In this document: positions 43,181 to 62,359 of the stretch, piece by piece
Layout of the letters: every line of letters starts with the position of its first letter
Position numbering within the stretch: the first letter of the stretch is position 1
NCBI GenBank assembly: GCA_000293845.2
Contig: ALYF01000002.1
Span: forward strand, 372,001 to 436,000
Reading direction: 5' to 3'
DNA: 64,000 bases
Source of the DNA: an alpha proteobacterium IMCC14465
GTDB lineage: Bacteria > Pseudomonadota > Alphaproteobacteria > RS24
Made by a program: the position numbers and the translations under genes
The notes under the pieces: generated by a model
What the model was told of the DNA's origin: nothing
Database searches by the model: none
What the model saw: only the letters and a program-made list of their open reading frames with translations

Positions 43181-44119
43181 ATGTCGATTTTTACACTTCA
43201 TGGAAAAAAAATCTGGGTGGCCGGTCACAACGGCATGGTCGGTAAGGCAGTTATGCGTCTTCTTGAAAAAAAAAACTGTGAGATTTTAACGAGTGATCGG
43301 CATTCTCTCGACTTAACAATTCAAAAAGATGTCAATCACTGGGTCGCCTACAATAAACCTGACGTCGTCATCATATGTGCAGCCAAAGTTGGCGGTATTT
43401 TAGCGAATAACAGCTACCCGGCAGAATTCCTCTATCAAAACCTGATGATTGAGGCCAACATTATCCATGCTGCGTATGAGAATGGCGTAGATAAATTACT
43501 TTTTCTTGGCTCCTCATGTATTTATCCAAAACATGCTGAACAGCCAATGAAAGAAACCGCCCTGCTTTCCGGACCACTTGAAGAAACAAATGAATGGTAT
43601 GCATTGGCTAAAATTGCGGGAATTAAATTGTGTCAAGCTTACAGAACACAATATGGCGCAGACTTTATATCAGCCATGCCGACCAATCTATATGGTCCTC
43701 ATGATAATTTCGATTTGCAAAGCAGCCATGTTTTACCCGCCTTGCTCCGCAAAACTCATGAAGCCAAGCTAAACAATCAAAATGAGATTAAAGTTTGGGG
43801 GACGGGTGAGCCCTTAAGAGAGTTTATGCATGTCGATGACTGCGCCGAGGGCATTGTTTTTCTTCTTGAAAATTACTCTGATTTGTCTCACGTCAATATT
43901 GGAACGGGAGAGGAAATTTCAATTAGAGAATTAACTGAAATTATTAAATCCGCTGTTGGTTTTAACGGAAGCACAGAATTTGACACATCCAAACCTAACG
44001 GCACCCCTAGGAAACTTCTTGATACTTCTAAAATTAATAATTTAGGTTGGTATCCAAAAATCAATATGGACAGTGGGTTAGCAGATACTTATGAATGGTT
44101 TTTGGAAAACTACCAATAA
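43181..44119 (+). CDS. fcl: GDP-L-fucose synthase
   Basis: 312 residues. It epimerises and reduces the product of Gmd to GDP-L-fucose. HGKKIWVAGHNGMVGKAVMR is the NADP site, FLGSSCIYPKHAEQPMKETA holds the conserved Ser-Ser-Cys, and EWYALAKIAGIKLCQAYR has the Tyr-Lys pair. PTNLYGPHDNFDLQSSHVLP and REFMHVDDCAEG are family segments. Together with gmd (40552) and manC (62360) the window encodes the route from mannose-1-phosphate to GDP-L-fucose. Confidence 0.94.
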   Translation: MSIFTLHGKKIWVAGHNGMVGKAVMRLLEKKNCEILTSDRHSLDLTIQKDVNHWVAYNKPDVVIICAAKVGGILANNSYPAEFLYQNLMIEANIIHAAYENGVDKLLFLGSSCIYPKHAEQPMKETALLSGPLEETNEWYALAKIAGIKLCQAYRTQYGADFISAMPTNLYGPHDNFDLQSSHVLPALLRKTHEAKLNNQNEIKVWGTGEPLREFMHVDDCAEGIVFLLENYSDLSHVNIGTGEEISIRELTEIIKSAVGFNGSTEFDTSKPNGTPRKLLDTSKINNLGWYPKINMDSGLADTYEWFLENYQ

Positions 44120-44288
44120 GTTAAATTATCAGAGGTGAGATAAGGGGTGAGATAGCCGATATTGCGGGCCCAATATGTGTCGTTTATCACATTTTATGTG
44201 GCGGTCATGGGGTGTTTTTTAAACTTCGACATTGCTTAAGCCAAACGTCCAATCATCAATTTGGCTTCGTTTTGTAAAATACACGTCC
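44120..44288. other. Left margin of the accessory island
   Basis: 169 bases between the GDP-fucose synthase gene and the GC-rich gene pair. It includes two direct copies of GGTGAGATA at 44134-44142 and 44146-44154. No gene or clear terminator is seen. The base composition changes sharply at its right end (about 44285), which marks a probable island edge. Confidence 0.4.
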
Positions 44289-44846
44289 TTACACCTTGTA
44301 GTCATCATTCTGCGCCTTCAGCGCCTTCAGCAGCTGGTTGAGGCTGCGTTTGCGGTAGCGATCAAAGTGCTTGCCGCTAACGATTTTCCGCCAAAATGCG
44401 TCGCCCCTGAGGCCGCCGGGCGGGATCTTGCCGATATGCTGCCCGCCGCCGGTCTTGTAGCTAATATAGTGGTGTGCGCCTAGTTCGATGTCGCGCTGAT
44501 TGTCAAGCGGCAGCGGCGCCAGCGAATTGGGTATGCGCGGGTCCATCAGTGCGTAGGCGGACGCCATGCACATCATGCGGTGGTGCAGCTCATCCTCCGC
44601 CCTGTCGACGCGATCATAGTCCAGGAGGCACAGGGCAACGCGGAAGGCGTGCGTAGGCTGGTATCCGGCTCTTATGAGAACATTCTGGAGGCGGTCGAGG
44701 GCGTCGCCGACCTGTTTCACGTCAATGGGCTGGCTGACGCCGTGGCTCAGGGCGTTTTTACTCGCGCGGCGCTTGCCGGCGCCAGTCCTGGGCCCGGTCG
44801 ACTTCAGCGCGTTTTGCCTATTGGCCTGCCGGCGCGCGCGGCTCAT
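44289..44846 (-). CDS. Unknown protein with STGPRT N-terminal motif, accessory island
   Basis: 185 residues from the ATG at 44846, which has GGAGGAG 7 bases upstream inside the preceding gene (about 29-base overlap, so translation is coupled). The N-terminus is basic and holds NALKSTGPRTGAGKRRASKN followed by ALSHGV. This motif occurs in many uncharacterised bacterial proteins of accessory regions. The rest (LDRLQNVLIRAGYQPTHAFR, MDPRIPNSLAPLPLDNQRDI) is unknown to me; its basic C-terminus (WRKIVSGKHFDRYRKRSLNQ) could bind nucleic acid. GC content is clearly higher than in flanking genes, a sign of transfer. Confidence 0.7.
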   Translation of the reverse strand: MSRARRQANRQNALKSTGPRTGAGKRRASKNALSHGVSQPIDVKQVGDALDRLQNVLIRAGYQPTHAFRVALCLLDYDRVDRAEDELHHRMMCMASAYALMDPRIPNSLAPLPLDNQRDIELGAHHYISYKTGGGQHIGKIPPGGLRGDAFWRKIVSGKHFDRYRKRSLNQLLKALKAQNDDYKV

Positions 44847-45444
44847 CCGGCATCTCCTCCTGGATTTGGGGCGCCTGGTCAATCGTCAGACGCTCATCAG
44901 CGAGCTCTCGCTCGAGGAGCCGTGTCTGCGCCTCAAGGCGGCGGCGCATGGCCGGCGTCAGGCTGGCCGCGGCGTGCATCTTCTGCAATTTGCCGATGCG
45001 CTCGTGGCAGGTGTCGATGTCGCGCACATAGTCGGGGATGCCATACCCAGCAGACTTGAAGACGTCCTGCTGGAGTTCGAACCAGTCGCACTCCTCTTCG
45101 GCGCAAAACTTCGAAATTGCGGTGCTCTCGTCGGGCGATTTGCAGGCCTTCATGTCGAGAAGCGCAGGGCCGAGCGTTTTAGGCTTTATTTTTTCTTCCT
45201 CATAGCACTCGGCGACATAGTCGTGCATATGGTCGTAGAAGGCGCGCCGACGTTTGATTTGGAAATATTCGATGAGCTTGAATTGACGGAAAATCTCGTT
45301 TGAAAAAAAGACTTCCACGGGGCTCAAATTGCTGGCATCGCCAATAAAGGCAGCGAGCGCCTTTTCGTATTGGGTCTGGGATAGGTGCGGCGGCGGGGCG
45401 ATTTTGCCCAGAATGTCGCGAATGGGGTTTGGGAGGGTTGTCAT
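44818..45444 (-). CDS. Unknown accessory-island protein
   Basis: 208 residues. No recognised domain. It is acidic to neutral and helical, with YQLKRRRAFYDHMH-like KRRRAFYDHMHDYVAECYEE and a Cys-bearing FCAEEECDWFELQQDVFKSA, then a long charged helix (LTPAMRRRLEAQTRLLEREL). The start ATG at 45444 lies downstream of a predicted promoter with a palindrome over its -10 box. It is the first gene of a two-gene, GC-rich operon and is coupled to the STGPRT gene. Function not assigned. Confidence 0.7.
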   Translation of the reverse strand: MTTLPNPIRDILGKIAPPPHLSQTQYEKALAAFIGDASNLSPVEVFFSNEIFRQFKLIEYFQIKRRRAFYDHMHDYVAECYEEEKIKPKTLGPALLDMKACKSPDESTAISKFCAEEECDWFELQQDVFKSAGYGIPDYVRDIDTCHERIGKLQKMHAAASLTPAMRRRLEAQTRLLERELADERLTIDQAPQIQEEMPDEPRAPAGQ

Positions 45445-45468
45445 GTCGGGGTCCTTTGCTGCTTGACA

Positions 45469-45510
45469 TACTACATATAGTATCAGAAACCCCTAAATTA
45501 CAATATGTAG
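45469..45510 (-). promoter_or_regulatory. Promoter with operator-like palindromes for the GC-rich gene pair
   Basis: On the minus strand TTGTAA (45503-45498) and TACTAT (45482-45477) are spaced 15 bases, a plausible -35/-10 pair for the gene starting at 45444. The imperfect palindrome TACTACATATAGTA (45469-45482) covers the -10 box. A related inverted copy (ATTACAATATGTAG, 45497-45510) covers the -35. A repressor bound here would block transcription. The XRE protein encoded next door is the natural candidate. Confidence 0.5.
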
Positions 45511-45518
45511 AATTGGAT

Positions 45519-45758
45519 TTATCCCCGTAAATTGAGCGTGACCCCAGGGTTTCTGAGCGGGTCACCGGTGAATTCGATGCCGGCGGCTTCTAAAGTTGTC
45601 TTCAATACAAGAAGGCTTTGAACATTCCCATTTGGAATACCGCTGCCCATCTCATAGCGGCGAATAGTTGTCGCCCCAACGCCAGAATTCTTCGCAAGGA
45701 TGGCTGCACTCCACCCTAAAAGTGCTCTTGCCCCCTTGATTTGCTCAGACGATATCAC
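45519..45758 (-). CDS. XRE-family helix-turn-helix regulator
   Basis: 79 residues, essentially one DNA-binding domain. SSEQIKGARALLGWSAAILA, then KNSGVGATTIRRYEMGSGIP is the Cro/C1-type helix-turn-helix, and EAAGIEFTGD is the usual last segment of this short subgroup. It is divergent from the integrase gene and upstream of the GC-rich pair. Such small XRE proteins commonly repress their own element's genes. Two palindromes that share an AGTAT/ATACT core lie in the two flanking control regions. Confidence 0.88.
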   Translation of the reverse strand: MISSEQIKGARALLGWSAAILAKNSGVGATTIRRYEMGSGIPNGNVQSLLVLKTTLEAAGIEFTGDPLRNPGVTLNLRG

Positions 45759-45762
45759 TATT

Positions 45763-45801
45763 ATTCCTTTATTGGAATATATTTATCCATTTAGTATACT
45801 A
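45763..45801 (+). promoter_or_regulatory. Integrase promoter with palindromic operator
   Basis: TTGGAA (45772-45777) and TATACT (45795-45800) are separated by exactly 17 bases, a good sigma-70 promoter for the integrase gene starting at 45820. The perfect 10-bp palindrome TAGTATACTA (45792-45801) sits on the -10 box, and ATTCC...GGAAT (45763-45778) forms another inverted repeat around the -35. Since the XRE gene starts at 45758 on the other strand, one regulator could control both directions. Confidence 0.6.
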
Positions 45802-45819
45802 TAGTGACTGGAGAATATC

Positions 45820-46683
45820 ATGATTGACGAATTATTTGCAAAGTTTGAGGGCGCCTTCGCCGAAAATACCATTCGCGGATATAGGCATGATTTCGATCAA
45901 TTCGCGAAGTGGTGCTCAAATGAGGGCGTACATCCCCTGCCCGCGCCTTCAGTCAGCATTGCCACTCACATTGACGCCCTATCCGAGACCCACAAGGCGG
46001 CCTCGATACGGCGGCGGATAAATGCGCTGAGCACAATTTACAGGCTGGGCCGCATGGAAGACACCACAAAGGACCCTGACGTGACGCTCGCCATGAAGCG
46101 TATGCACAGGAAGCTGGGGCGCGCGCAAAAGCAGGCCAAGCCGCTCACAAAACTCTATCTAGATAAGATGATAGAAGCCCAAGATGACAGCCCCTGCGGT
46201 CTCAGAAATAAGATACTGCTGCTCATGGGATATGAGACCATGCGCCGACGCGCAGAACTCGTCGGATTTGAATTCAGTGATGTGACTTGCTTGCTGAATG
46301 GCAAGCCGGCTTTGCGTCTTAGATTTTCTAAGGCAGACCAGTATGGAGAAGGCAGGCTAATTGGGATATCCAAGGACTTAGAAGGGCTCATTGCTAAGTG
46401 GCGAAACCTTGTCGGTGGTGAAGGTAAGATCCTACGCTCCGTCGACAAGCACGGAAACATTGGCGAGAAGCTCGAGCCGTCAGCCGTCAGCTATATCCTT
46501 CGCCAGGTGCAGGCAAATATCACCCTTCCCGGCAATAAAAAACCCCGCCAGTGGACGGGGCATTCATTTCGGCTTGGGGCAGCTGTCGACTTAGTCGAGA
46601 GCGGCTATACGATTGAGCAAGTTATGCGAAAAGGTGATTGGAAAAGCGCACAGGCAGGGTTGAGATATGTGATGGCGGAGTAA
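45820..46683 (+). CDS. Tyrosine recombinase (phage-type integrase)
   Basis: 287 residues. An N-terminal SAM-like core-binding domain (FAENTIRGYRHDFDQFAKWC, ASIRRRINALSTIYRLG) precedes the catalytic domain. Active-site residues visible are Arg143 in TMRRRAELVGFEF, His248 and Arg251 in GHSFRLGAA, Trp274 in RKGDWKSA (in place of the second His) and the nucleophile Tyr283 in GLRYVMAE at the very C-terminus. It joins and cuts DNA at short att sites. All catalytic residues are present, so it may be active. Degraded copies of its 3' end lie at 48826 and 49180. Confidence 0.93.
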   Translation: MIDELFAKFEGAFAENTIRGYRHDFDQFAKWCSNEGVHPLPAPSVSIATHIDALSETHKAASIRRRINALSTIYRLGRMEDTTKDPDVTLAMKRMHRKLGRAQKQAKPLTKLYLDKMIEAQDDSPCGLRNKILLLMGYETMRRRAELVGFEFSDVTCLLNGKPALRLRFSKADQYGEGRLIGISKDLEGLIAKWRNLVGGEGKILRSVDKHGNIGEKLEPSAVSYILRQVQANITLPGNKKPRQWTGHSFRLGAAVDLVESGYTIEQVMRKGDWKSAQAGLRYVMAE

Positions 46684-46726
46684 ACTAACTGAGGTTATAA
46701 ATCGGAGGAAAGTTTAATGTGTACGC

Positions 46727-46754
46727 AGGGCTTTAAATTAAAAAATCAAGCCCT
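46727..46754. terminator. Hairpin between convergent integrase and acyltransferase genes
   Basis: A 7-bp inverted repeat (AGGGCTT and AAGCCCT) with a 14-base A/T loop lies between the integrase stop (46683) and the acyltransferase stop (46778). It has no long T run, so it may be a weak or factor-assisted terminator. Confidence 0.4.
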
Positions 46755-46777
46755 ACCAAGGATTGCCTGAGTCAGCC

Positions 46778-48767
46778 TCACTGAAAGTGCGCTTTAAGAA
46801 GATTCTCATATTGCCAGAGGCTTCCTATGACTGAAAGGTGATCATCATCAGCGTATAAAAGTTCATTTTTTTCATTAACTGCAAAACAAATTCCCGACTG
46901 CTCGCGGCAAAACGCAGCAATGCTATCCAATACAATCACGTTATTTAGGGCCATCAAGTTTTCTCGGTAAGCTTTTTGCCCGGCAAGCACAACTTCCAAA
47001 TTCTGATTACATTTGTTCTCGGATATAGCATTGAATGGTCGAGGCAAACAAGAGCGAGCATGAAACTGTAACTCTGGGTTTTCGGTAACATACAGGACCT
47101 CAATATCTTTTTTTCGAATAAAGTTTATAGTGCTTTGCAAGCCTTTAAAATAATCATCCATAGTAATAGAAGGTTCTTTTTTTCTGCTAACAGCAGGCTC
47201 TGTACCTGTCCAGTAGGTAGGCCCCCTACTAAAAAATATCACACGATTTAAGTTTTTGATGTTTGATAAAGATGACAATATTTCCATTGTCCTCTCTGAA
47301 CAATGCGCCCTTTGCTTTTCAGTTCCACCTTCAGGAAATTTAAAAAATGGTGGGCACGATGAGTTGGCCAACAGAACCGAAGTATATCCAAAAGATTCTA
47401 AGCCTTTAGCTATTCCCGGAAAAGCGACATGAGCGTGAGAGTCTCCAATAACAGCGACAACACCTCTTGTGCCCAATTTTCCTATTTTACAATAGTTGAA
47501 CTTACTTTCTGAAAGACCCAAGAACGATAAACATTGCTCTTCCTTGGCCACCGTTCTTTTCAGCTCACTCAAATTCATATTATCATTGGTCACGGCACTT
47601 CGATATTTCACGCCCTCTGAATAACTAACAATCCCCGCCAACAGCCCCAAACCAACCATACATGCCATTAGGTGGGTCACTTTCGGCGCAACTGCAACTT
47701 GCTTGCGAATTGGGCGCTCGACAAATTTGTAAGTTAACCAGGCAAGTAAAACTGAAAAAAGAATAGCGAAAAAGCGAATCTCATATTGCGGAGAGGCACC
47801 TTCGATTATACGCAGAAATGACAATATCGGCCAGTGCCATAAGTAAAGGGGATAGCTGATTAACCCAATCCAGACCGCGATTGAATTCATAAGAAATATT
47901 CGGTTTAACAGCCCTTTTGAGCCGCTAAGTATAATCATTAATGTCCCGGATATCGGAATGAGTGCCCAGGCAGATGGAAAAGCAAGCCCCATCATGCAAG
48001 ATTAGTACGCTGCAGGCCAAGAGCAAAAATCCGACAAATGAAATAAGATTTGATGAGCCTAAAATTTTATGAAAACGGCCTGTTGAGTGGATGAGAAAGT
48101 CACTCCGATAAAGCAATAACCAGGCAAGAATACTTCCAGCCAAAAGTTCCCAAAAACGTCCGATTGGCCAAAAAAATGTTTCTGCAGGCTCTAACTCAAC
48201 AAAATGTAAATTAAGAGTAAAAGAAACGGCTGCAATGATCGCAGTGACTGCCAGTAAATTCATTTGACGTTTCCAAGCGAACCAAAGAACAACAGGCCAT
48301 ATAATATAAAACTGCTCTTCAACCGCTAAGCTCCACAAATGAAGCATTGGCTTGGTTTCCGCAGCATTATCAAAATAACCCGCCTCCCCGGCCAAAACAA
48401 AATTAACAACGAATGCTGCACTAGATGAAATATGCTTGCCCAATTGAGCATATTCATCTGCCAAGAGAGCAATCCATCCAAATGCTAAAGCACTTGCCAT
48501 TACAACAATTAAGGCAGGAAAAATACGTCGAATACGACGGGCAAAAAACTCTGCTAGGCTGAACTGGCCTTTGTCCAAATTTTCGTAAATATGGCCTGTG
48601 ATTAAAAAACCACTAATGACGAAAAACACATCAACACCGACAAAGCCACCACTCACCAGCTCAGGAAAAGCATGAAAAGCAACAACTGACAGAACGGCGA
48701 AGGCACGCAATCCATCTATTTCAGGGCGATAAGTTAACTTTTCAGGCAAAGACGACATAGAAACCAA
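46778..48767 (-). pseudogene. Acyltransferase 3 (OafA/YrhL type) with C-terminal SGNH domain, frameshifted
   Basis: Two overlapping frames make one protein of about 660 residues. The first (48767-47925) has RPEIDGLRAFAVLSVVAFHA, VDVFFVISGFLITGHIY and FARRIRRIFPALIVV, the acyltransferase-3 membrane domain with its catalytic His. The second (from about 47995 to 46778) continues with SYPLYLWHWPILSFLRIIEG and an SGNH-like domain: VVAVIGDSHAHVAFPG and YADDDHLSVIGSLWQYE. Such proteins add acetyl groups to LPS or capsule sugars. The frames separate at a run of four G on the coding strand (bases 47987-47990). Removing one G gives HDG-LAFPSAW, so one extra base likely inactivates the gene, unless it is an assembly error. 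Confidence 0.85.
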
Positions 48768-48825
48768 TAATCAGAACGCGGATTCAAAATAATTTAAAAA
48801 TATATACTAAAAAAAACCCGAAGGT

Positions 48826-48853
48826 GGGGTTGAGATATGTGACAGCGGAATGA
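48826..48853 (+). pseudogene. Remnant of an integrase 3' end (last nine codons)
   Basis: GGGTTGAGATATGTGA followed by GCGGA and a stop repeats the last codons of the intact integrase gene (46656-46683) with 4 differences in 28 bases, encoding GLRYVTAE. It ends in TGA instead of TAA. No open frame leads into it. It lies just beyond the start of the acyltransferase gene, so the acyltransferase is bracketed by this sequence on both sides. Confidence 0.7.
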
Positions 48854-48988
48854 TTATTCCGCAGATTTGGTAGAATTACAGTCAGGAAACAGGCTCATAA
48901 TCGTATCATAGAGCCTTGCAACATGGTCGCCGTCTCAAAATTCCGCCCTCTCTAGGAGCGAAATGATTAAGGCGAAACCGTTGCCCAA
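48854..48988 (-). pseudogene. Decayed C-terminus of an unknown gene
   Basis: On the minus strand one frame reads LGNGFALIISLLERAEF, a TGA stop, then DGDHVARLYDTIMSLFPD and ends CNSTKSAE before a TAA. The two halves share one frame across the stop and look like coding sequence of one lost gene. The family is not known to me. Placed among integrase remnants, it probably belonged to a mobile element. The plus-strand ORF over 48989-49171 has no recognisable domain. Confidence 0.4.
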
Positions 48989-49179
48989 GTGTTCTCCATC
49001 TTTGATGGCAACAGAATTGACACGATAAGCAAACTAAAGGGATGTATCCAAAAACTCATTTGCACCAAGGACACTTCCGTACGTCAGATGGAAGCCGAGA
49101 TAGCTTATATCGCCGAAACAGAATGTGCCGATTATCAAGTTTTAATTTGCGGAAAATGGGTGGGTTTGTAGTAGGGGTG

Positions 49180-49248
49180 TCACCATTCGAAAGTGGTTAT
49201 ACGAATGAACAGGTTATAAGGAGAAGCGATTGGAGGGTTTACGAGTAG
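49180..49248 (+). pseudogene. Second, more diverged remnant of an integrase 3' end
   Basis: The frame SPFESGYTNEQVIRRSDWRV matches VDLVESGYTIEQVMRKGDWK of the intact integrase, then ends YE and TAG. It keeps the conserved Gly-Asp-Trp region (here SDW) but has lost about eight codons before the tyrosine tail. No integrase sequence precedes it in a usable frame. This shows at least a second, older recombinase gene at this place. Confidence 0.7.
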
Positions 49249-49532
49249 GTTGTGGATATAAAAGTCCAGAATAGCGTCAGGTAATTTAGCATAATTATGG
49301 TCAGAGAATAGTTGTAAAATTTCAATAGACCTTTGTACCGTGTTTACATCAGTTTAGTGTTAAACACCAATTTGTAGAATTAATCTTTGCGTGCGTTTTA
49401 CATTTTGCAAGAGGCATCCGCCGGTTAACTGGATAAGGCTCGTGTTCCGATGGGTGCTTACGCTTTGTCGAGTGCGTCGAAGTTGATACGTTTTTATCTA
49501 ACGACTGTTTTCTAAAACTCTACATAATTATG
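49249..49532. other. Intergenic region at right margin of the island
   Basis: About 280 bases between the last integrase remnant and the end of the polysaccharide operon. No protein, tRNA or clear terminator is seen. The part at about 49415-49500 is richer in G+C than its flanks and has no long ORF; a small RNA or a further remnant is possible but unsupported. Confidence 0.35.
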
Positions 49533-50381
49533 TTAATTTTTTTTCAAGATAAATTTTCCGGATATAGCGTTCCAATTTGGTGAATTTAAAAACGATTGGT
49601 CAGGCTCAAACAAAATTTGATCCTCACAAACAACGAAACTTTCTTCAATAATTTCGAAGTTAGTTGAACGGAAAAGAACGAGGTAATCGCTATGCCTCAA
49701 ACGGTTCTGATAGTGATTAGAGTGATTAAAGGACTCCCATTCAGTTTGACTATATCGCAAAAAATTTAGTTCTGAGATGGACCGGTCTGTGTGCGAATAA
49801 TGGTCAGAATAGTCAATTTTTATTGAACAAATACCACCTATTTTCAACACCCTGTATACCTCTAAAAAGATTTTTTCTAATTCTTCTAGCGGTATATGCT
49901 CTAGTGTGTTCGTAGATATGCATGCATCTATAGACCCTTGAGCCAACCCGGTACGCCTAGCATCCGCAGGTGCTCTATAATATATCCCATATTTCTCTAG
50001 GTCCTTATCGGACCGGATATTCAACCTCTTATCTAAGAGCTTGTTGGAATGCAAAGATTCTATAGCAGTAGTTACTAAATCTAAGTCGAGCATATAATTC
50101 AAATCGAATAACCATTGCTTTTCAACAAGACTGGAAAGGTATAAGTTTTGAGCCAAATGGTTTCCCGCTCCGAACTCAAAAATATTTGACAAACAATGGT
50201 ATTTCTCAAGGTTTTTGGCATGAAACACCCAATTTGGATGGGCACTCGATTGACTGAAAGCTCTGACCTTTTTTTTTGCTCGCTTCGTGAGATGCTTGTG
50301 AAACCAAAAAACAAGTCTGCCTGACGGAAATTTATCTAGCAGACGAAAAACTTTAGATTTGAATTTCCATGGAATATTCAA
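49533..50381 (-). CDS. SAM-dependent methyltransferase (class I, Methyltransf_11-like)
   Basis: 282 residues. The N-terminus is basic and not membrane-spanning. The SAM fold is recognised from EFGAGNHLAQNLYLSSL (motif I, here FGAGN), DLNYMLDLDLV, SIDACISTNTLEHIPLEELE (motif IV region) and EVYRVLKIGGICSIKIDYSD. It is the last gene of the polysaccharide operon and starts 3 bases after the sugar-transferase stop. A sugar O-methylation is the likely role, or methylation of a lipid-linked intermediate; the acceptor is unknown. Confidence 0.85.
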   Translation of the reverse strand: MNIPWKFKSKVFRLLDKFPSGRLVFWFHKHLTKRAKKKVRAFSQSSAHPNWVFHAKNLEKYHCLSNIFEFGAGNHLAQNLYLSSLVEKQWLFDLNYMLDLDLVTTAIESLHSNKLLDKRLNIRSDKDLEKYGIYYRAPADARRTGLAQGSIDACISTNTLEHIPLEELEKIFLEVYRVLKIGGICSIKIDYSDHYSHTDRSISELNFLRYSQTEWESFNHSNHYQNRLRHSDYLVLFRSTNFEIIEESFVVCEDQILFEPDQSFLNSPNWNAISGKFILKKN

Positions 50382-50384
50382 TAT

Positions 50385-51077
50385 TCAACCGCCTCTAACT
50401 GTGGTCTCATTCCTAAACTTCTTCTTTAGCCTCTCTGGAGGGAGCGGCAATTTTGGAAAGAAACGAAATATTACTTGTGAATCCCCAGCAAAAACCGAGT
50501 AAATAGTTAATACGATAAGGGTGCAGTATATCGAGAACTTATTGTTTTTAACGTACCAGGATTCTAACTTGTTTTTATAGGGCGCTATCACATTCCGGTA
50601 GAAAGCTCGCTGATCCCTCTCGCCTTCCAACAAACCTTCTTCATTCCGAAATATTATTGACGCGATACCAGTAAGTCCAGGCTTGACTGAGTAGCAATAC
50701 ATCAAGTCCTTTTTTGGTATTCCCTCTAAATCTCTCTCCACGTGCGGCCTCGGACCTACAAGACTCATATTTCCGAGAAATACATTGAACAACTGAGGCA
50801 GCTCATTCAATTTTGTTTTCCTTAAAATTTTACCAACCGGAAGGACCCTTGGGTCATCAGGAACTGTAATTGAGCCAGTTAACATACTTGGACTCGCCTC
50901 TAACATAGTTGCGAATTTTAAAATCCAGAAAGGCTTCAGATTTTGTCCCAATCTCTGCTGCCTGTAAATTATTTTACCCTCGCCCGTTATCCTCAATAAA
51001 AAGCAGATGCAAATAAGCAGAGGTGACAATAGGAAAAGCGCGCTCGAAGCTAGTATTAAATCTGATAGGCGCTGCAT
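50385..51077 (-). CDS. Phosphoglycosyltransferase (PglC-like sugar transferase)
   Basis: 230 residues. One N-terminal re-entrant hydrophobic segment (LILASSALFLLSPLLICICF), then GKIIYRQQRLGQNLKPFWIL, and the core RVLPVGKILRKTKLNELPQL with FLGNMSLVGPRPHVERD. It attaches a sugar-1-phosphate to undecaprenyl phosphate to start repeat-unit synthesis. The usual catalytic Asp-Glu pair is Asn91-Glu92 here. Related family members with this Asn exist to my recollection, but it deserves checking. A last hydrophobic helix (IYCTLIVLTIYSVFA) follows. It overlaps the dehydratase gene by one base. Confidence 0.9.
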   Translation of the reverse strand: MQRLSDLILASSALFLLSPLLICICFLLRITGEGKIIYRQQRLGQNLKPFWILKFATMLEASPSMLTGSITVPDDPRVLPVGKILRKTKLNELPQLFNVFLGNMSLVGPRPHVERDLEGIPKKDLMYCYSVKPGLTGIASIIFRNEEGLLEGERDQRAFYRNVIAPYKNKLESWYVKNNKFSIYCTLIVLTIYSVFAGDSQVIFRFFPKLPLPPERLKKKFRNETTVRGG

Positions 51078-52255
51078 TACATTTTACTGTCTAAAAAGAC
51101 CCCTGTATCAATGTGATTAAATGAAGGGATGAAACCCTTAAATAATCCAATCAACTGTGATGCAGAAGTTTCATGGTTCTGTATAAGCGAATCCAAGCTT
51201 TGAAGAAATAAATCTCTTTCTTGCCGACTAACAGTCTCTTTGTTAATTACTGCAGAGAGAGTTTTAAATCGAGCATCTCCAAATCTTTCATTGCTACTAA
51301 AAAACTCTTCAGCCGTTTTTTCTCCGGTTGTACTGCTTGCAAAAAAATGCAGAGGGATGCTATCATTCCCTAATCGGGCGAATTGCCTCGCTTCGAACTC
51401 AGAATCAAATATTTGAAAATTCAGCCGTCTAAATGCTAGATAAGCCTTCACGAGTTCTGAGATGTTTTCCAATTCAACTTCCCCACCACCTCTTGGGAAC
51501 AGAACCTCCCCAGTCTCGCCAAATAACAATGAAATTAAGCAAATAAAGCCGGCTTCTTGTTCAGTAATAAAATATCTCCAAATATCTTTCGGCGCACTTA
51601 CGGGCTGCTTTTTCTCCACCCTTTGCTTTACGCCAGCGAATAATGATCCGTCGGAAAAAATAACATTTGCAAAGCGCGCAGAAGAAATAGGAATACTGCT
51701 CTTATCAGAAAAAAGGCAAAGCTCCATTGCCTTTTTAGTTGCTCCCATAAAGTTTGCAGGAGCTGAAGATTTGTCGGTTGAGACACAAAAATATTTTTTT
51801 GTACAAGCGCCCAGCCCGTCCAATATAGCAAGTGAATTGAATATATTTACCTGACACATGCGCTTCATTGTAAACACGCTACTCTCGCTACGAACATGTT
51901 TAAGGGCTGACAAGTTTAGAACATAGTCAAAGGATCGTTCTCGCAAAAATTGAAGAAAAATAGAACTTCCGCAATCTAACGCTAAAGTTTCAAATTTTTC
52001 TATGTCATAATCAAAAGAGCTCCTTATATCTCTTACTAGTTCGACCAACCCATTCTCACTCAAATCAACAGCCGTCAAGGATGAGACTTCAAAACCAAAG
52101 AGGAGCTTTGCAACAGAGCGACCGATACTCCCACCCGCGCCCACAACCAGGCATCTAGACCCTTTTAGCGCTCGCCGCATCTCTCCGTTTAAATCATTTA
52201 GATCGGGCTCAAGAAAATTTCTACTGCCCTTAAATAAATCGTCATAACTAGTCAT
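51077..52255 (-). CDS. UDP-sugar 4,6-dehydratase, soluble CapD/PglF/WbpM-like
   Basis: 392 residues. SRCLVVGAGGSIGRSVAKLL is the NAD site. DYVLNLSALKHVRSESS, then STDKSSAPANFMGATKKAMEL (the M-x3-K catalytic pair of this group) and RFANVIFSDGSL match the WbpM/PglF type that makes 4-keto-6-deoxy-GlcNAc from UDP-GlcNAc. It lacks the membrane part of WbpM and has its own C-terminal extension of about 130 residues. The next genes encode a PLP aminotransferase and a PglC-like transferase, the set that makes and loads a 4-amino-4,6-dideoxy sugar. It overlaps the aminotransferase gene by four bases. Confidence 0.87.
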   Translation of the reverse strand: MTSYDDLFKGSRNFLEPDLNDLNGEMRRALKGSRCLVVGAGGSIGRSVAKLLFGFEVSSLTAVDLSENGLVELVRDIRSSFDYDIEKFETLALDCGSSIFLQFLRERSFDYVLNLSALKHVRSESSVFTMKRMCQVNIFNSLAILDGLGACTKKYFCVSTDKSSAPANFMGATKKAMELCLFSDKSSIPISSARFANVIFSDGSLFAGVKQRVEKKQPVSAPKDIWRYFITEQEAGFICLISLLFGETGEVLFPRGGGEVELENISELVKAYLAFRRLNFQIFDSEFEARQFARLGNDSIPLHFFASSTTGEKTAEEFFSSNERFGDARFKTLSAVINKETVSRQERDLFLQSLDSLIQNHETSASQLIGLFKGFIPSFNHIDTGVFLDSKM

Positions 52256-53391
52256 GAGACAACCGTTTCCAAAAGTGCCTTAGCTATATCTTCCACCCCG
52301 GCAATAGTAAGTCTAGGGTGCAGAGGCAGCGACAATTCTCTGTCGCAAATTTCATCACTCACTGGCGCATCACCTTTCTGAATAAACCCGCTATATCCAG
52401 AGAAACTATGAAATGCTGGATAATGAATGCTTGTTTGGATTCCTTGAGCGCTTAACTTGTTTATCACCTTAGCTCTGTTCGCATGCTTTGGCAAAAGAAC
52501 TGGCATGATATGGTGCGCGGATGAATATTTTTCTTCCTTATTAGCTAGCGTAAATGGCAAGATAATGTCTGATGCCGCTAGTAGACTTTTATATTTATTA
52601 GTTAATGTCTCGCGCTTAGCGTTTCCATCCAGAACCTTTCTCAACTGTACACGACCCAATGCAGCCTGCATTTCAGTCATTCGGTAGTTAAGCCCAACGC
52701 CGGCAACATCATAGGAAGATGCCCTGCCCAAATGCCTGTCCAAAGTAAGCGACGACATTGAATGACTCCTGAGGTTACGCAAGCGTTGAACCGATTCACT
52801 CCTGTTTGAACAGATCATTCCTCCCTCGCCACAAGATATGTTTTTGTTTCCATAAAACGAAAAGAATGAATAATCACCTAAAGTCCCGGCGGACTTGCCG
52901 CGAACGGCTGCGCCAGGGGCGTGCGCACAATCCTCAATCAGCAAACAGTCATGAAACTCCGACTTTAAACTCTGAAAATCTCTAACGTATCCAGCAAAAT
53001 GCACCAAAACAATGGCTTTCGTTTTTCTTGAAACCTTACTTCTTATGCTTTTAATGCTGACATTGAGATCGAGCAAAGACTCACTATCTGCGAAAACTGG
53101 TGTTGCACCTAGTTGCCTGACCACGTTTGCATCAGAGACAAACGTAAGTGCAGGTAATATTACCTCATCGCCCGGCCCTATCCCGTTTTCCATCAGGATT
53201 AGATGTAAGGCAGCAGTTGCACTTGATACAGCAACGGACTCGACACTACCTCCTAAAAACTGCGTGAATTCCTCCTCAAAATGTTGAACTTCTGGACCCA
53301 TGGTAATCCATCCAGACCCTACCACTGCATTGACAGCGTCTATTTCGTCTTGTGAATAATTTAGTTCCGACAACTGATATCGCCAATCCAT
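52252..53391 (-). CDS. DegT/DnrJ/EryC1 sugar aminotransferase (PglE-like)
   Basis: 379 residues. PLP-dependent transfer of an amino group to a keto sugar. The PLP Lys is K183 in SFYGNKNISCGEGGMI. SATAALHLILMENGIGPGDE, LPALTFVSDANVVRQLGATP and VSSATAALHL are family segments, and LIEDCAHAPGAA carries the Asp/His of the cofactor site. LNYRMTEMQAALGRVQL is also typical. Given the dehydratase next to it, the substrate is probably UDP-4-keto-6-deoxy-GlcNAc, giving a 4-amino sugar. It overlaps the dehydratase gene. Confidence 0.92.
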   Translation of the reverse strand: MDWRYQLSELNYSQDEIDAVNAVVGSGWITMGPEVQHFEEEFTQFLGGSVESVAVSSATAALHLILMENGIGPGDEVILPALTFVSDANVVRQLGATPVFADSESLLDLNVSIKSIRSKVSRKTKAIVLVHFAGYVRDFQSLKSEFHDCLLIEDCAHAPGAAVRGKSAGTLGDYSFFSFYGNKNISCGEGGMICSNRSESVQRLRNLRSHSMSSLTLDRHLGRASSYDVAGVGLNYRMTEMQAALGRVQLRKVLDGNAKRETLTNKYKSLLAASDIILPFTLANKEEKYSSAHHIMPVLLPKHANRAKVINKLSAQGIQTSIHYPAFHSFSGYSGFIQKGDAPVSDEICDRELSLPLHPRLTIAGVEDIAKALLETVVS

Positions 53392-53406
53392 AACCTCAAC
53401 CCCTCC

Positions 53407-54501
53407 CTAAAATCCAATCCTAATTAATTCAGCGGGGTTGTTCTGTTCGGGTAGGTAATCCCCATGGACATCTACAATTACATCCCCTCTGTGATAAGCC
53501 TGTCTAGCAGAAGCCTGACTAACGGTCATCCCAAAATCTTTCCTAAGAATATCTGCGATTGCTAAATATGGAGAATTCCTGAGATCTTCAACACCACTTT
53601 TAAATGAGAAGGAGGTAAATATAACGCGCTCGGGAGAGTGCTCCATAATTTTTTCCGCCCAATATTTTATAAAAGTATCATTGAAAAACTTTACCTGCGC
53701 TAGCATCTCCGAACCAATGAGTGCTTTTTCTTGAGCCGCAAGTATTTCTGTCTCCTTAGGTAAACAGTATCCGCCGTAAGGTGCACCAGGTTTTAAATAA
53801 GCTTCGCTTATGTTCAATGTATCCAACAAAAATAAATCCGATACTTCCTTAGGGTCAGCATTAAGCTTTTCACAAAGTGTGGCCAGCATGTTTGCAAATG
53901 AAACTTTTGTAGCTCGCCAAGCATTATTTGCCACCTTCAATACAGACAAACTCTCAGGGGTGTAAGTCGAATAATCTTCTAAATGATTTTCTTCAAAATT
54001 TGCGCCCTCAACTATTATTCCTACATAATCCGGTTCATTAACCAGATCCTTGAGCGCCAGACCTTCACGAAGGAACTCAGGCTTAAAGGCTAGACACTGG
54101 AAATTTCCTATTTCATTACCTCTCAATTGACTAATAATCTCTGGAGAGATCGTAGATCTAATCAGGATAAGGGATTCTGGAAGGTTGACTTTGCAATCGT
54201 CAATAGCGTCCATTAAATTTATAGTATCATATACTTCGCCTTTAATCGACACGTCCACGCATATATGAATTTCTACAAAACCGTCAAAACCCAAACTATT
54301 GAGGTCTTGCGATATGTTTTTCATCTGAGGCTCACTTAAAGAAATACCCGGCTCTCGAGATTCTATTAAACCCTTCCTAAGGGCCTCTACCTTTTCTAGA
54401 TTTTTGTCTATTGCAAAGACATTTTTAGCACCCTTTTTTAAACCTAAATGGTGATAAAGAGGTAACCCCACATGTCCTAAACCAACAACCAAATAACGCA
54501 A
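53407..54501 (-). CDS. UDP-glucose/GDP-mannose dehydrogenase family protein
   Basis: 364 residues. YLVVGLGHVGLPLYHHLG is the NAD site, RSTISP and AFKPEFLREGLALKDLVNEP the sugar-binding region, VANNAWRATKVSFANMLATL with Lys199, and APYGGYCLPKETEIL with the catalytic Cys246. These fit an enzyme oxidising a nucleotide sugar to a uronic acid. It is shorter than UDP-glucose dehydrogenase, with a reduced C-terminal domain. A second, separate Ugd-like gene runs off the right edge. The exact sugar cannot be told. Confidence 0.85.
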   Translation of the reverse strand: MRYLVVGLGHVGLPLYHHLGLKKGAKNVFAIDKNLEKVEALRKGLIESREPGISLSEPQMKNISQDLNSLGFDGFVEIHICVDVSIKGEVYDTINLMDAIDDCKVNLPESLILIRSTISPEIISQLRGNEIGNFQCLAFKPEFLREGLALKDLVNEPDYVGIIVEGANFEENHLEDYSTYTPESLSVLKVANNAWRATKVSFANMLATLCEKLNADPKEVSDLFLLDTLNISEAYLKPGAPYGGYCLPKETEILAAQEKALIGSEMLAQVKFFNDTFIKYWAEKIMEHSPERVIFTSFSFKSGVEDLRNSPYLAIADILRKDFGMTVSQASARQAYHRGDVIVDVHGDYLPEQNNPAELIRIGF

Positions 54502-54574
54502 TTAATTTCTCCAACTAAAAAGTAGTGTTTATTCCTAAAAGGATTGATCCAAAGCGGTTATTAAGCACTTTAAA

Positions 54575-55321
54575 TTATTGCCCACGATGCTTCAAAGTAT
54601 TCTGAATAGACCAAATGGCCCACATAGACTTCCGGAGCGCATAACCCAACGTCACGTCTAATTTTGTTGCCTCGTCACCATGCAACCATCCCACTGGGAA
54701 GCTATATTTAAAATGCTCCATAAATTTACCGAAAATCTTTGTTGAGTGCATCTGTGCGGCACTGTCATACATATTGTAAATAGACAACGCTTTTTTGCTT
54801 GGGGTCCCCTCTGTCTTATTGGAGTGGCCTATCACGGAGTATTTCATACCTAGCAACTCGCAAATTTGATACCACTCTTGCTCCAATTTTTCTATTGAAT
54901 ATATGAAATCGTATCTCTCCCTGCAAATATAAATGGGAGAAAAGTAAACCCAGCGTACATTTTGGATAAAATAGGTTGAGAACGATTGCGCCTCGCGGAT
55001 CATCCTTCTTCTGATTAACTGCCCGGCCCCTCTGGCTTTTCGAATTCGATCGGAATTAGGGACCCCTTGATACAAACCAACATGATTAGAGAGTAGCTTA
55101 TGGTAAACCGACACTCTCTCCGTTAACGGATTCCTTACCCCTCCTATGATAAAGTAGTTTTTATAGAGGTCAGGGTAAAAAACCCTCAACTCGTCCAGGT
55201 AGCTATGTTTACTAAGTATCGACTCCCCACCATACTCTTTTACAAGAAGTTCTCCGAGGTCTGTTGAAGCCGTGTGGGGAACTTGGACCAGTATGAGTCT
55301 ATGATCATGACATACTATCAT
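54575..55321 (-). CDS. Sulfotransferase-like protein (Sulfotransfer_2 type)
   Basis: 248 residues. The PAPS 5'-phosphate loop appears as VQVPHTASTDLGELLVKEYG near the N-terminus and the 3'-phosphate region as FIIGGVRNPLTERVSVYHKL. The fold of these two elements is that of carbohydrate sulfotransferases. FIYSIEKLEQEWYQICELLG is also typical. It starts within the last codons of the flippase gene. Inferred role: sulfation of the polysaccharide. A PAPS source is not encoded in this window. Confidence 0.8.
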   Translation of the reverse strand: MIVCHDHRLILVQVPHTASTDLGELLVKEYGGESILSKHSYLDELRVFYPDLYKNYFIIGGVRNPLTERVSVYHKLLSNHVGLYQGVPNSDRIRKARGAGQLIRRRMIREAQSFSTYFIQNVRWVYFSPIYICRERYDFIYSIEKLEQEWYQICELLGMKYSVIGHSNKTEGTPSKKALSIYNMYDSAAQMHSTKIFGKFMEHFKYSFPVGWLHGDEATKLDVTLGYALRKSMWAIWSIQNTLKHRGQ

Positions 55322-56771
55322 TAGCAGCTCCGTTGAAAAGAAGAAGAAACCGTGGTTTTGCCGTCAAAAGCCAGACAAACGCCAGTGCAGCATTGAATGC
55401 AACAATTAAACTTATCTCTGCAGCGCCCTCCGTAACAAACGCTATGAAATAATTCAAAAACAATAGCAATACAGCTAGAATCAAGAGCTTTTGCAGCTGG
55501 CTTCTTGATGCCTGGAGATAAATAATTCTTCTCAACAAAAACAAGGAAACTAAGCCATAAATAGCGACACTTATCATCAATGACCACAATACGGCCTGTT
55601 GGTGGGAAAACAGCAAAACGAGACAGAAATAACAACCTATCTGCAAAATGCATGCCGCTAAAGCGTTATAAGTGTTCAGCGGTTGGAAAAAGATTCCATC
55701 CAGAAATCCTCTAACCATCACGTAAACACAATGAAGGATGATAAATGGACCTGAAATTTTTAAAAAACTAGCTGAGTCAGCGTATCCTTCTCCAAAAAGC
55801 AGAGCTGTTATTTCGCTCGACCAGAAAAATAAGCACACTGTAACAGGGAGAGAAAAGAAAAATAATGATTCAATCGCACAGTTTGCAAAAAAACTCAGCG
55901 CCCTAAATCTCTTTTTTTTTCTTTGAAGAGAAGAATGAAAAACTATCGTCGGGCTCGCAGCCACAGCAAGCGCTTCAGTTGCTCTAAAAAAAAATATCAC
56001 AATCGCGCAAATCGCAGCTGTTTCATAATCAGCGTTAAGAGAACAAATAATAAATGGAAAACCAAAAATAAACGACTTAAGAAACCCGGCTGGCGTCCTG
56101 AGCAATCCGAAAGCAAAATATTCCTTGAGTAAATATGCACGCACTGGAGGTTCAAATTGCATTTTTAACTTGAAAACTATATATATTATAAAAAGGATCG
56201 CCGTGGAAAACATATAGGAAAATCCGAGCAACAAAATAGCTTCCTGCCAATTTTCTGTCATCCAAAGATTAACTAAACATATTGATATGACCGTAATGTT
56301 GAATGGCCCCTTGATTAAGTTAGTCAACCATATCCAGCCCATCCCTCTGAACGTGCCCTCTAAAACCCTTGTGCTGCTAATGCCTATGATTAGCGGTAGG
56401 GCAGTCATTGCATTGCGCAGCAAATCATCAGGCTGCACTTCAAAAAATAGAAAAAGTGAATAAACACCAAACAACAGCGTACCGAACAATATTACAACCA
56501 CGAAGTAAATATTAATACCAGCAACAGCGAGACTCTTTTTAGACACTGCGCCTGCCATTAACTTCGGCAGCGCGATTGCCAAACTGAATGCCGCTACAGG
56601 GGAAAGAAGAACACCCATACTGCGAACTGCCTGAAATTTTCCAAATTCCTCAAGGCTTAGAAACCGGGCCGCCAGAAAGTAAAATGCCACTAGGGACACA
56701 GTTGTAGCCAAAGAGGCCGCTATTGTTAGCAACAGATCGAGCTGCAGCCCTGATAAATTTATACGCTTCAT
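55305..56771 (-). CDS. Flippase of the polysaccharide (Wzx/oligosaccharide transporter family)
   Basis: 488 residues from the ATG at 56771 (a TTG at 56792 is an alternative). About twelve to fourteen membrane helices. LDLLLTIAASLATTVSLVAF, ARFLSLEEFGKFQAVRSMGV and GRGFLDGIFFQPLNTYNALA-like segments fit the MATE/PST flippase superfamily. It would flip lipid-linked repeat units to the periplasmic side. It overlaps the sulfotransferase gene by 17 bases. Confidence 0.85.
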   Translation of the reverse strand: MKRINLSGLQLDLLLTIAASLATTVSLVAFYFLAARFLSLEEFGKFQAVRSMGVLLSPVAAFSLAIALPKLMAGAVSKKSLAVAGINIYFVVVILFGTLLFGVYSLFLFFEVQPDDLLRNAMTALPLIIGISSTRVLEGTFRGMGWIWLTNLIKGPFNITVISICLVNLWMTENWQEAILLLGFSYMFSTAILFIIYIVFKLKMQFEPPVRAYLLKEYFAFGLLRTPAGFLKSFIFGFPFIICSLNADYETAAICAIVIFFFRATEALAVAASPTIVFHSSLQRKKKRFRALSFFANCAIESLFFFSLPVTVCLFFWSSEITALLFGEGYADSASFLKISGPFIILHCVYVMVRGFLDGIFFQPLNTYNALAACILQIGCYFCLVLLFSHQQAVLWSLMISVAIYGLVSLFLLRRIIYLQASRSQLQKLLILAVLLLFLNYFIAFVTEGAAEISLIVAFNAALAFVWLLTAKPRFLLLFNGAANDSMS

Positions 56772-56792
56772 ATTAACGAAATATTTACGCAA

Positions 56793-57323
56793 TTATCCAA
56801 TATTTTGGAGATCTATCGGCTCCACCACAGCGGAAGGAGACCGAACTAAAGAGTTATGGTCGACATTTTTTGGTGAAACTACATTCGCCGCAATAACTGA
56901 GCCACTTCTAATTATAGTGCCAGCAAGCACGACGGACGAATGCGCTAGCCAAACATTATCCTCGATGAGAACAGGCGAGTTTTTATATCCTTGAGCTTTC
57001 ATCACTAAGGTGGGGTTTCGAAATTTGTGGTTTTGTGTTGATATATAGACGTTCTCTGCAATCATTACATTTGAGCCTATTTTAACCTTCCCACCATTGC
57101 CAACAAGTATTGAACCTTCGCCAATATAAACGTTATCGCCGATCTCAATATTCCTTATCCCCTTTACTAGTACAGACGGTCGAATCGTTACGTTTTTGCC
57201 GATTTTTGCCCCAAGGATTCTTAGAAAAATTATTCGCGAAAACTTTAAAATGGTTGAGTATCTTATAAACCTAACAACAAGAAGCAGGAGGGAAAATATG
57301 TATCCAAAAAGCATTGAAATCAC
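56793..57323 (-). CDS. Hexapeptide-repeat acyltransferase (LbH type)
   Basis: 176 residues. One N-terminal membrane helix (ISMLFGYIFSLLLLVVRFI), then a left-handed beta helix built from repeated hexapeptides (IGKNVTIRPSVLVKGIRNIE, IGDNVYIGEGSILVGNGG, VMIAENVYISTQNHKF, VLIEDNVWLAHSSVVLAG). The loop QNHKF carries the likely catalytic His. It would acetylate a sugar; as a candidate for the 4-amino group of the bacillosamine-type sugar it could stand in for PglD (inference). No gap to the flippase gene. Confidence 0.85.
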   Translation of the reverse strand: MISMLFGYIFSLLLLVVRFIRYSTILKFSRIIFLRILGAKIGKNVTIRPSVLVKGIRNIEIGDNVYIGEGSILVGNGGKVKIGSNVMIAENVYISTQNHKFRNPTLVMKAQGYKNSPVLIEDNVWLAHSSVVLAGTIIRSGSVIAANVVSPKNVDHNSLVRSPSAVVEPIDLQNIG

Positions 57324-57324
57324 T

Positions 57325-58425
57325 TTATTCCCTCTGCTTTCTATCTCGATTCCTAGCTACTTTACTGCCCGAGAAAATTGAAAATAAGTTCAAATACTGT
57401 CGGGCTACCTCACTCAAACCAATTGATCTGCGAGGGGCAAATACACCCTCCAAAACTGCAGCATAAAGCCTCCCAGGGTCACGCAATAGGGCCTCAAAAC
57501 TGTAGGATGACGAATAATCGTAATCATTAGCGAAACCCTCAGCATAATTTTCATTCGAAAAGAAAACTGCCTTTTTGTGGGCTGCAGCTAAAGTTGCAAC
57601 ACCAGAATTTGTTACTTCGTAATTTATTAGTAAAGCGAAGGACTTTGCAATTAGATAATTAATTTCTTCGTCGGTAAGAAAACGAAGCAATAGATAAACG
57701 TAATCATCACTATTTTGCATCAAACTATCTATTAGACTTGGGTCATTGCACTTGCCCGCTACAATTAATTTCCGATTAAGAACTCTCAAAACGGGCTTGA
57801 TACTCTCAATGGTTTCAAGAATATTTTTTTCAGCAGTAATTCGTCCAACGATCAAGAAATATCCATTTTCTTCCAAAGGCAAATCTTGAGGCCTAGCTTC
57901 ACCTTCAGCAAACAGCTCTTCTTGAATACCTAGAGGAATCATCGAGCAGGATTGTGGTTTGAGAAAAAGTTTTTGCTCTCTGAATTTTTCTTCAAGAGTT
58001 CGTTGTGATTCTGAGGACGGAAAAATAAAATGATTCACTTGTTTAAATAGCATCCGATAGTAGAGATCTTCAGTCTTAACCCCACATTCATGCTTAAACT
58101 TAATATGCGGATTATGCACTGTCCAAATAATTTTAGTTTTCCGCAATTTACAAAATTCGAATAACAGCCCTAATAAAAGCACTTTAATCAAGGGACGAAA
58201 CCCACTCGACGCGAAAACTCTATCAGGCCAATGTACGTGTATAATGTCGTACTTGTTTAGCAGTAACCTTAGAATCGAGAATTCAAAAACTCTTATCTCT
58301 GCTTGACGGTCACTTTCTATATATTCATAGATAATTGAGAATCTTCGATTACTTAAACCAAACTTGGGCTTCGCTAGAACCTTTACTTTTGAATGATCAA
58401 TGATGAAGGTTTTCTTTAAAGCCAT
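57325..58425 (-). CDS. Glycosyltransferase (GT-B, GT4-like)
   Basis: 366 residues. NKYDIIHVHWPDRVFASSG and IIWTVHNPHIKFKHECGV are the N-domain segments of the GumH/WbaZ-like transferases. The C-domain shows YFLIVGRITAEKNILETIES and GVATLAAAHKKAVFFSNENY where GT4 enzymes have the E-x7-E motif region (here less clear). Cytoplasmic face of the membrane. The donor and acceptor sugars are not determined. It starts 25 bases after the polymerase gene's stop. Confidence 0.82.
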   Translation of the reverse strand: MALKKTFIIDHSKVKVLAKPKFGLSNRRFSIIYEYIESDRQAEIRVFEFSILRLLLNKYDIIHVHWPDRVFASSGFRPLIKVLLLGLLFEFCKLRKTKIIWTVHNPHIKFKHECGVKTEDLYYRMLFKQVNHFIFPSSESQRTLEEKFREQKLFLKPQSCSMIPLGIQEELFAEGEARPQDLPLEENGYFLIVGRITAEKNILETIESIKPVLRVLNRKLIVAGKCNDPSLIDSLMQNSDDYVYLLLRFLTDEEINYLIAKSFALLINYEVTNSGVATLAAAHKKAVFFSNENYAEGFANDYDYSSSYSFEALLRDPGRLYAAVLEGVFAPRRSIGLSEVARQYLNLFSIFSGSKVARNRDRKQRE

Positions 58426-58450
58426 AAACTTACTTCGATAAGTCAGAGTT

Positions 58451-59695
58451 TTATCTCCTACTTCTTGAAAGCACTATGGATAGGAACATAAGCAATAGAA
58501 AACCATGAGTCCCCATCGCGATCACCAAATCAGAGTTAATAAATATGTTAAGTATGAGCGGGGCTGCAGCTGCTGTAATAAGAGCTCTGTTGTTTTTATC
58601 AGCTAGACTGTCAAAAAAGGCGCAAACTAGCATCAATAAGATTGAATATAGGATAATCCCCACCAAACCAGCGTGCATATAGCCGGACGCCATGAACCCA
58701 GAGTTTACGTTTTTATAATTTCCTACATATTCGCCAATAACCTGTCCAGGAGATAAATTCATATATGGATATTCAAGAATTGACGAGAAAATGGTGTTAC
58801 TCCAGTAGAGGTAACCGTATTGTGAAAAGTAATTTATATAATGCGTAAAATTTAATGCCGCCGCAAATATGCTCCTACGAACTAAAAAACTCGAAGCTAA
58901 GTCAAAATTAATTAAGAAAAATGCACCAAAACTGAACGTCAAAAATAGAAGAGTTGTCATTAAGAGTCTTATGAAGCCAGCGTTTTGCATAGATAGAAAA
59001 AGGTAAATTCCGATACTAAGGAAGGGAAAAAGCAATGAAGTTTTCTGATTCGCCACACCAAAAGCCAAAAAAGTTAGAAGCAGAGCCAAAGAGAAAATTA
59101 TATATTTTTTTTTGTGCAGTGAATAAACCGCCATTATTGGCAGCAATACCTTCCCGACCCAGTTTCCTATATAAGCAAATATCCCTGCTTGAACATTTTC
59201 TTTTTGCGTCGCCCTAAAATCATAGACTTGATACAGATTCAAATTAAACTCTGAAAATCCGCTTCTACTCAAAACGAATACGAAATAAGCCGTTATGAAA
59301 GCAAAGAGAACCGAGAGGACCATTGGGTTCTGTTGCTTAATTAACGGAATACGAAATTTTAATTTATTAGTATTAACTAGGATCAAAAGACAGACGAAGG
59401 GAACCAATATATGATGCAGATATCCTCCGCCCAACGCTCCGACAGTTTGATAAGGAAGTAGAACGAAAAGAACGAATAATGAAGTAAAGAAATGGGATGG
59501 GCGCTCATAATTTGGTGCCAAAGCCAGCAGCGCCACAAACGGGAGTAGTACATAACTGAAAACGATCTTCCAATAACTCAGTTCTAGGGTATAGCCTAAA
59601 TAGGACCAATTTCCCGTTAAATATATTATAAAAATTAGGTCGTAGAATGCCCTAAGCAAAAATACCAACAGTATGGCTTTCAAAGCCGGCAACAT
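58451..59695 (-). CDS. O-antigen/EPS polymerase candidate (Wzy-like)
   Basis: 414 residues from the ATG at 59695 (59725 is possible). About ten or more membrane helices and a large extracellular loop around residues 265-345 (YSQYGYLYWSNTIFSSILEY, then NLSPGQVIGEYVGNYKNVNS). The pattern and its place in the operon suit an oligosaccharide repeat-unit polymerase, a family with little sequence conservation. An alternative is an O-antigen ligase-like protein. Confidence 0.7.
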   Translation of the reverse strand: MLPALKAILLVFLLRAFYDLIFIIYLTGNWSYLGYTLELSYWKIVFSYVLLPFVALLALAPNYERPSHFFTSLFVLFVLLPYQTVGALGGGYLHHILVPFVCLLILVNTNKLKFRIPLIKQQNPMVLSVLFAFITAYFVFVLSRSGFSEFNLNLYQVYDFRATQKENVQAGIFAYIGNWVGKVLLPIMAVYSLHKKKYIIFSLALLLTFLAFGVANQKTSLLFPFLSIGIYLFLSMQNAGFIRLLMTTLLFLTFSFGAFFLINFDLASSFLVRRSIFAAALNFTHYINYFSQYGYLYWSNTIFSSILEYPYMNLSPGQVIGEYVGNYKNVNSGFMASGYMHAGLVGIILYSILLMLVCAFFDSLADKNNRALITAAAAPLILNIFINSDLVIAMGTHGFLLLMFLSIVLSRSRR

Positions 59696-59733
59696 TTTTG
59701 GTGCTTTTCTAACGTGGGGCAGCAATCTCGAGC

Positions 59734-62071: not shown

Positions 62072-62359
62072 AAAACCTTCTTTAACTGAGGCATACCTAT
62101 ACCAAAAAGCATGGCTCTATTACTATTGCATGACCTTTGTGGCCTTTTTTTCAGTCTGAGTGAAAATTACGGAAGACCATTACTTTAGTTTGCGATTTGA
62201 CGGGAAAACACTCAAGAAACAAACCAGACAAAAGACTAAGTTACCTGTAACAGAATAAGACTTGAACTGAATCACAAGAATACCTTTGGAGGATCTAATT
62301 TTTTTGATGTTAATGTAACAACCAACGGAATAGGACGCAGAGTGCCCTCTAGCTCTTGC
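62072..62359. promoter_or_regulatory. Leader region of the polysaccharide operon
   Basis: About 290 bases between manC and the first gene of the 13-gene operon, both on the minus strand. The stretch near 62140 has a T run on the plus strand, and the middle is A-rich, without open frames. It must hold the promoter of the operon if it is not expressed with manC. I see no certain -35/-10 pair and no JUMPstart/ops element. Confidence 0.45.

Follow-up and report, generated by a model that had tools for sequence, protein, structure and literature searches.

A Cre-related integrase module and probable relics of earlier integrases in a glycan locus of the alphaproteobacterium IMCC14465

The window, the whole 64,000-nucleotide stretch of the IMCC14465 genome analysed here, carries a set of glycan genes together with an integrase gene between the conserved neighbours fcl and manC. 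The features of this region are:

43181–44119, plus strand: GDP-L-fucose synthase gene (fcl), conserved left neighbour (Pfam Epimerase, 8.9e-64; 79% identical protein in the congener G005)
44128–62361, no strand: 18.2 kb absent from G005, which has fcl and then manC
44289–44882, minus strand: module protein 1, with a NRQNALKSTGPRT motif (44–55% identity over 35–49 residues with neighbours of related integrases)
44818–45444, minus strand: module protein 2 (identified only by a location matching that of protein 2 in related modules and by a motif similar to the eye; blastp gave no match)
45519–45758, minus strand: HTH regulator, divergent from the integrase (Pfam HTH_3; 41–48% identity with the HTH beside most Rhodobacterales relatives)
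45820–46683, plus strand: intact Cre-related tyrosine recombinase of 287 aa (R, K171, H248, R251, W274 and Y283 conserved)
46778–48767, minus strand: AT3-SGNH acyltransferase gene, frameshifted near 47985 (Pfam Acyl_transf_3, 2.4e-24; SGNH, 2.5e-31; two overlapping ORFs)
48812–48853, plus strand: relic 2, integrase 3' end, VGLRYVTAE and stop (DNA comparison with the integrase tail)
49184–49248, plus strand: relic 3, integrase 3' region, ESGYTNEQVIRRSDWR (protein and DNA match to the integrase)
49533–62071, minus strand: glycan operon (methyltransferase, sugar transferase, flippase-like protein, glycosyltransferases), convergent with the integrase (large ORFs; methyltransferase from Pfam, other roles read from sequence)
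62360–63787, minus strand: manC homologue, conserved right neighbour (61–67% identical in G005, where it directly follows fcl)

In G005, about 60 bases separate fcl from manC and a counterpart of 44128–62361 is missing. These 18.2 kb comprise a module of four genes (hypothetical proteins 1 and 2, the HTH regulator and the integrase), the acyltransferase gene, the relics, and the glycan operon, in which all large ORFs point toward the integrase. A search for direct repeats at the two ends, at 44.1 kb (44128) and 62.3 kb (62361), revealed no common stretch of 10 or more bases. The window has a single tRNA gene, located 26 kb away. Protein 2 (208 aa) found no match in 384 other genomes of the class, and its equivalents in related modules were assigned by position only.

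The integrase shows a near full-length profile match to Cre of phage P1 (E 1.6e-35) with the catalytic positions aligned. In an alignment of 11 sequences, R143/R144, K171, H248, R251, W274 and Y283 are invariant between the window integrase and its relatives. The protein thus has the residues of a Cre-like tyrosine recombinase, and recombination activity is predicted. It ends with GLRYVMAE; the catalytic tyrosine, Y283, lies within this tail region, which is strongly conserved at the protein level in the same alignment. Over its length, the integrase has just 30–35% identity with its relatives and forms a long branch in the tree. The AU test does not reject a tree that unites the glycan-located integrases in one clade (p 0.41), which is no proof of such a clade. 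The XerA/integron integrase model scores 35.9 bits against a cut-off of 220, and the window contains one repeated tail only. Searches of viruses returned no close relatives, phage records giving distant ones only, and a search of the genome collection yielded one distant match, in Vibrio. No lox-like palindromes common to the loci were found.

The first-pass annotation had reported three integrase 3' ends in this region, and all three are real and located on the plus strand. The second, at 48826–48853, is identical to the end of the gene (46656–46683) at 23 of 28 bases on recounting, one fewer than the 24 matches originally given, and includes an exact 16-base core, GGGTTGAGATATGTGA. The similarity extends weakly to 48812, and outside the core it goes on at the level of codons (M to T, GAG to GAA, TAA to TGA). 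The third, at 49188–49236, has the product ESGYTNEQVIRRSDWR, aligned with ESGYTIEQVMRKGDWK in the integrase. In a tblastn search of the whole genome with the integrase it ranks second. It lies 2.5 kb from the gene and shares 37 of 51 bases with the integrase tail; of the 13 differences in a 49-base comparison, 8 affect third codon positions (binomial 0.035).

Both short copies are the top matches of the integrase tail in the window. The runners-up to copy 2 across the 64 kb reach 17/28 on the same strand and 18/28 on the other, and in a local DNA alignment of the tail copies 2 and 3 score best (36, followed by 29 and 25). The pattern formed by the core plus GCGGA, allowing up to three mismatches, occurs twice in the genome itself and not at all in five congeners. 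Chance resemblance could be argued for copy 3 taken alone, whose E value in the genome is 0.2, yet we regard it as very improbable for the pair: across the six genomes of the genus, copy 2 is found here alone, and both copies lie on the same strand, within 2.6 kb of the gene, as the best matches in 64 kb.

Near the window module, no remnants of the 5' part of older integrases were detected. Relics 2 and 3, and the relic in the related locus L095 described below, are all 3' pieces, more than expected if pieces were retained at random. We also considered whether copies 2 and 3 could be two parts of a single split gene in exchanged order; this is unneeded, because copy 3 may run past its stop. 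Between the two relics lies a 60-aa ORF (48989–49171) with no match in plasmids and a PHROG match at chance level, which may be another decayed piece.

The minus-strand acyltransferase gene lies between the first two plus-strand copies, and its earlier description as framed by recombinase tails in direct order holds. The gene consists of two overlapping ORFs, the mark of a frameshift near 47985, rather than of a single intact frame; a sequencing error is possible. At the thresholds used, neither the integrase nor the acyltransferase has a counterpart among 27 other genomes of the same family, suggesting that both were probably acquired. The GC content of the acyltransferase gene equals that of the operon (0.41), unlike that of the integrase module (0.51–0.60), which points to probably different histories for module and acyltransferase.

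Related modules are found repeatedly in glycan loci. In 13 of 14 Rhodobacterales loci on annotated plasmids, the integrase stands beside manC, fcl, gmd, rfb or glycosyltransferase genes; the exception (L059, Sulfitobacter W027) has two integrase copies, and the part viewed shows no evident glycan cluster. Most related loci also have the divergent HTH gene, and protein 1 has the same motif as in the window. So as not to pick cases, we searched 395 Rhodobacteraceae genomes, almost every one from a different genus. The integrase is carried by 20 of them, and at least one glycan gene was present in 18 of the 21 loci (about 17 kb each), at least two in 14. By comparison, a nearby glycan gene was seen for none of eight sister-clade integrases of other alphaproteobacteria (p 4e-5) and in 2 of 19 control regions from the genomes that supplied the 21 loci (p 3e-6). 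These p values are guides, since the controls were hand-picked at round coordinates, the window and the plasmid loci supplied part of the glycan gene reference set, and contig ends shortened some survey loci. Further chromosomal cases are L032, L033 and L037, the last with a truncated relative of the integrase that has a formyltransferase gene on one side and a capD-like gene on the other. In the literature searched, we found no report of an association between this module and glycan loci.

The related loci also vary in composition. In L067 (10270–11144), L101, L104 and L112, an alternative pair, a protein of about 200 aa and an HGGxSTG-domain protein, takes the place of proteins 1 and 2, and L104 has two such pairs. 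The integrase of a Pseudosulfitobacter plasmid (L057, 8947–9740) is broken, and the match falls into the same two pieces in some 30 similar plasmids. Two Roseivivax plasmids that are 90% identical diverge just past the integrase terminator (L062, 9953–10989; L068, 9955–11536), where they differ in terminase-small-subunit-like genes, unlike each other and oppositely oriented, and in a MazE gene present in one of them.

More than one integrase, or its remains, is present in 6 of about 37 loci, although the gene is rare. The closest parallel to the window is L095 (G622), where a full integrase, a convergent sugar transferase gene, an integrase 3' fragment, a dehydratase gene, a glycosyltransferase gene and another full module follow each other in one direction; the first three reproduce the window layout of a full integrase, a single convergent glycan gene and an integrase 3' fragment. 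Besides the two integrases of L059, a 5' fragment occurs in L069 and internal fragments in L061 and L055. Fragments start at varying points, about 10–14, 20–30 and 60 codons from the stop. Tail copies were sought with a tail profile and by DNA alignment judged against shuffled sequences; they turned up in L095 and, of the other loci, in the separate case L042 only. In L042 (G307), a different tyrosine recombinase is followed about 2.8 kb downstream by a degraded copy of its tail (66-base match, broken reading frame).

Two readings had been offered for the tail copies: a crossover (att) sequence within the tail, or older elements reduced to their 3' ends. Under the first, the 28 bases that close the integrase gene would be an attachment site at which an acyltransferase segment of about 2170 bp was captured, with attL at 46656–46683, attR at 48826–48853 and the integrase reading frame restored. 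The identical 16-base core with diverged arms, the direct orientation and the frame kept through the left copy agree with such a layout, as does L095, where a lone glycan gene is flanked by integrase 3' ends. When Pseudosulfitobacter and Sulfitobacter loci are compared in pairs, moreover, nucleotide similarity is lost at the integrase stop or no more than 15 bases from it, and the glycan genes or operons that follow differ. This fits insertion beside the integrase end; it is also expected for diverged genes bordering unrelated sequence. Most relatives lack tail copies downstream, and the other relics are 5' or internal pieces. An att site in the tail is unsupported because fragment start points vary, unlike those of a single crossover site, because some fragments are 5' or internal, and because the tail diverges like coding sequence: among relatives its DNA differs at synonymous sites and has no fixed core, and copy 2 remains similar beyond its own core. 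We therefore consider both the capture and the proposed att layout unlikely. The broader idea of a Cre-related module dedicated to alphaproteobacterial glycan loci, capturing or exchanging glycan genes at a site next to its 3' terminus, is doubtful as well; if it were true, convergent genes would be added singly, driving surface-polysaccharide diversity. A strain with a single junction at the repeat, suggested earlier as a check, was not found, nor were empty sites in plasmids.

Alternatively, glycan blocks could be swapped by homologous recombination through conserved flanks (fcl, gmd, manC), with the integrases as passengers and the relics marking old borders. Replacement islands of this type have been described in aquatic prokaryotes (PMC4033161), and in Pseudosulfitobacter plasmids a manC-fcl-gmd stretch that is 98% alike is followed by different integrases (75%) and operons. 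By itself, however, this process leaves the recurrence of the module at glycan loci and its stacking unexplained, and as the full account we judge it quite improbable. Homologous exchange of glycan blocks may nonetheless have carried modules along.

The reading that we favour, and hold to be probable, is that 46–49 kb is a spot in a surface-glycan locus occupied repeatedly by small integrase modules, the tail copies being relics of successive modules. Of the two earlier proposals, that of older elements cut to their 3' ends is thus retained, because the copies are diverged integrase code, stacking is seen elsewhere and the module family is repeatedly found in glycan loci. The presence of the same module in the same kind of place in relatives likewise speaks for an insertion site that was used repeatedly, not for a cleanly captured cassette. 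Modules would have arrived in the locus one after another, by integrase action or with exchanged glycan blocks, and later arrivals and deletions would have disrupted the older copies. Old tails may still be recognisable because the catalytic-tyrosine region that they encode is conserved. The acyltransferase would be a glycan gene that ended up between two integrase copies and is itself decaying. As no empty site for the module alone was found in the plasmids searched and the ends at 44128 and 62361 share no direct repeats, the integrase as the agent of these arrivals is something that we infer.

The finding is more telling for the habit of the module family than as a cassette. Swaps of O-antigen and exopolysaccharide clusters in marine bacteria have so far been attributed largely to homologous recombination (PMC4033161). 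A recombinase module recurring at the downstream end of glycan clusters, on chromosomes and plasmids, is a testable candidate for a second swap route, of which the tail copies in the window would be a small footprint.

Among known systems, the integrase resembles the Cre recombinase family in its profile match and aligned catalytic positions; in contrast to Cre, it is paired with a divergent HTH gene and hypothetical proteins 1 and 2 inside a glycan locus. Like genomic islands with stacked integrases, the window has several related integrases or remains in direct order, but it has no tRNA target, and att repeats were not found, the 28-base copy by the acyltransferase gene being the sole candidate. 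In aquatic bacteria, O-chain and EPS clusters are exchanged by homologous recombination as replacement flexible genomic islands, and integrases belong to the other, additive kind of island (PMC4033161). The window shares with replacement islands a single locus of related function whose gene content differs between relatives, as seen in the fcl-manC arrangement of G005 without the 18.2 kb and in plasmids with different operons behind the same genes. Unlike the replacement islands described, the island in the window contains an integrase module with relics.
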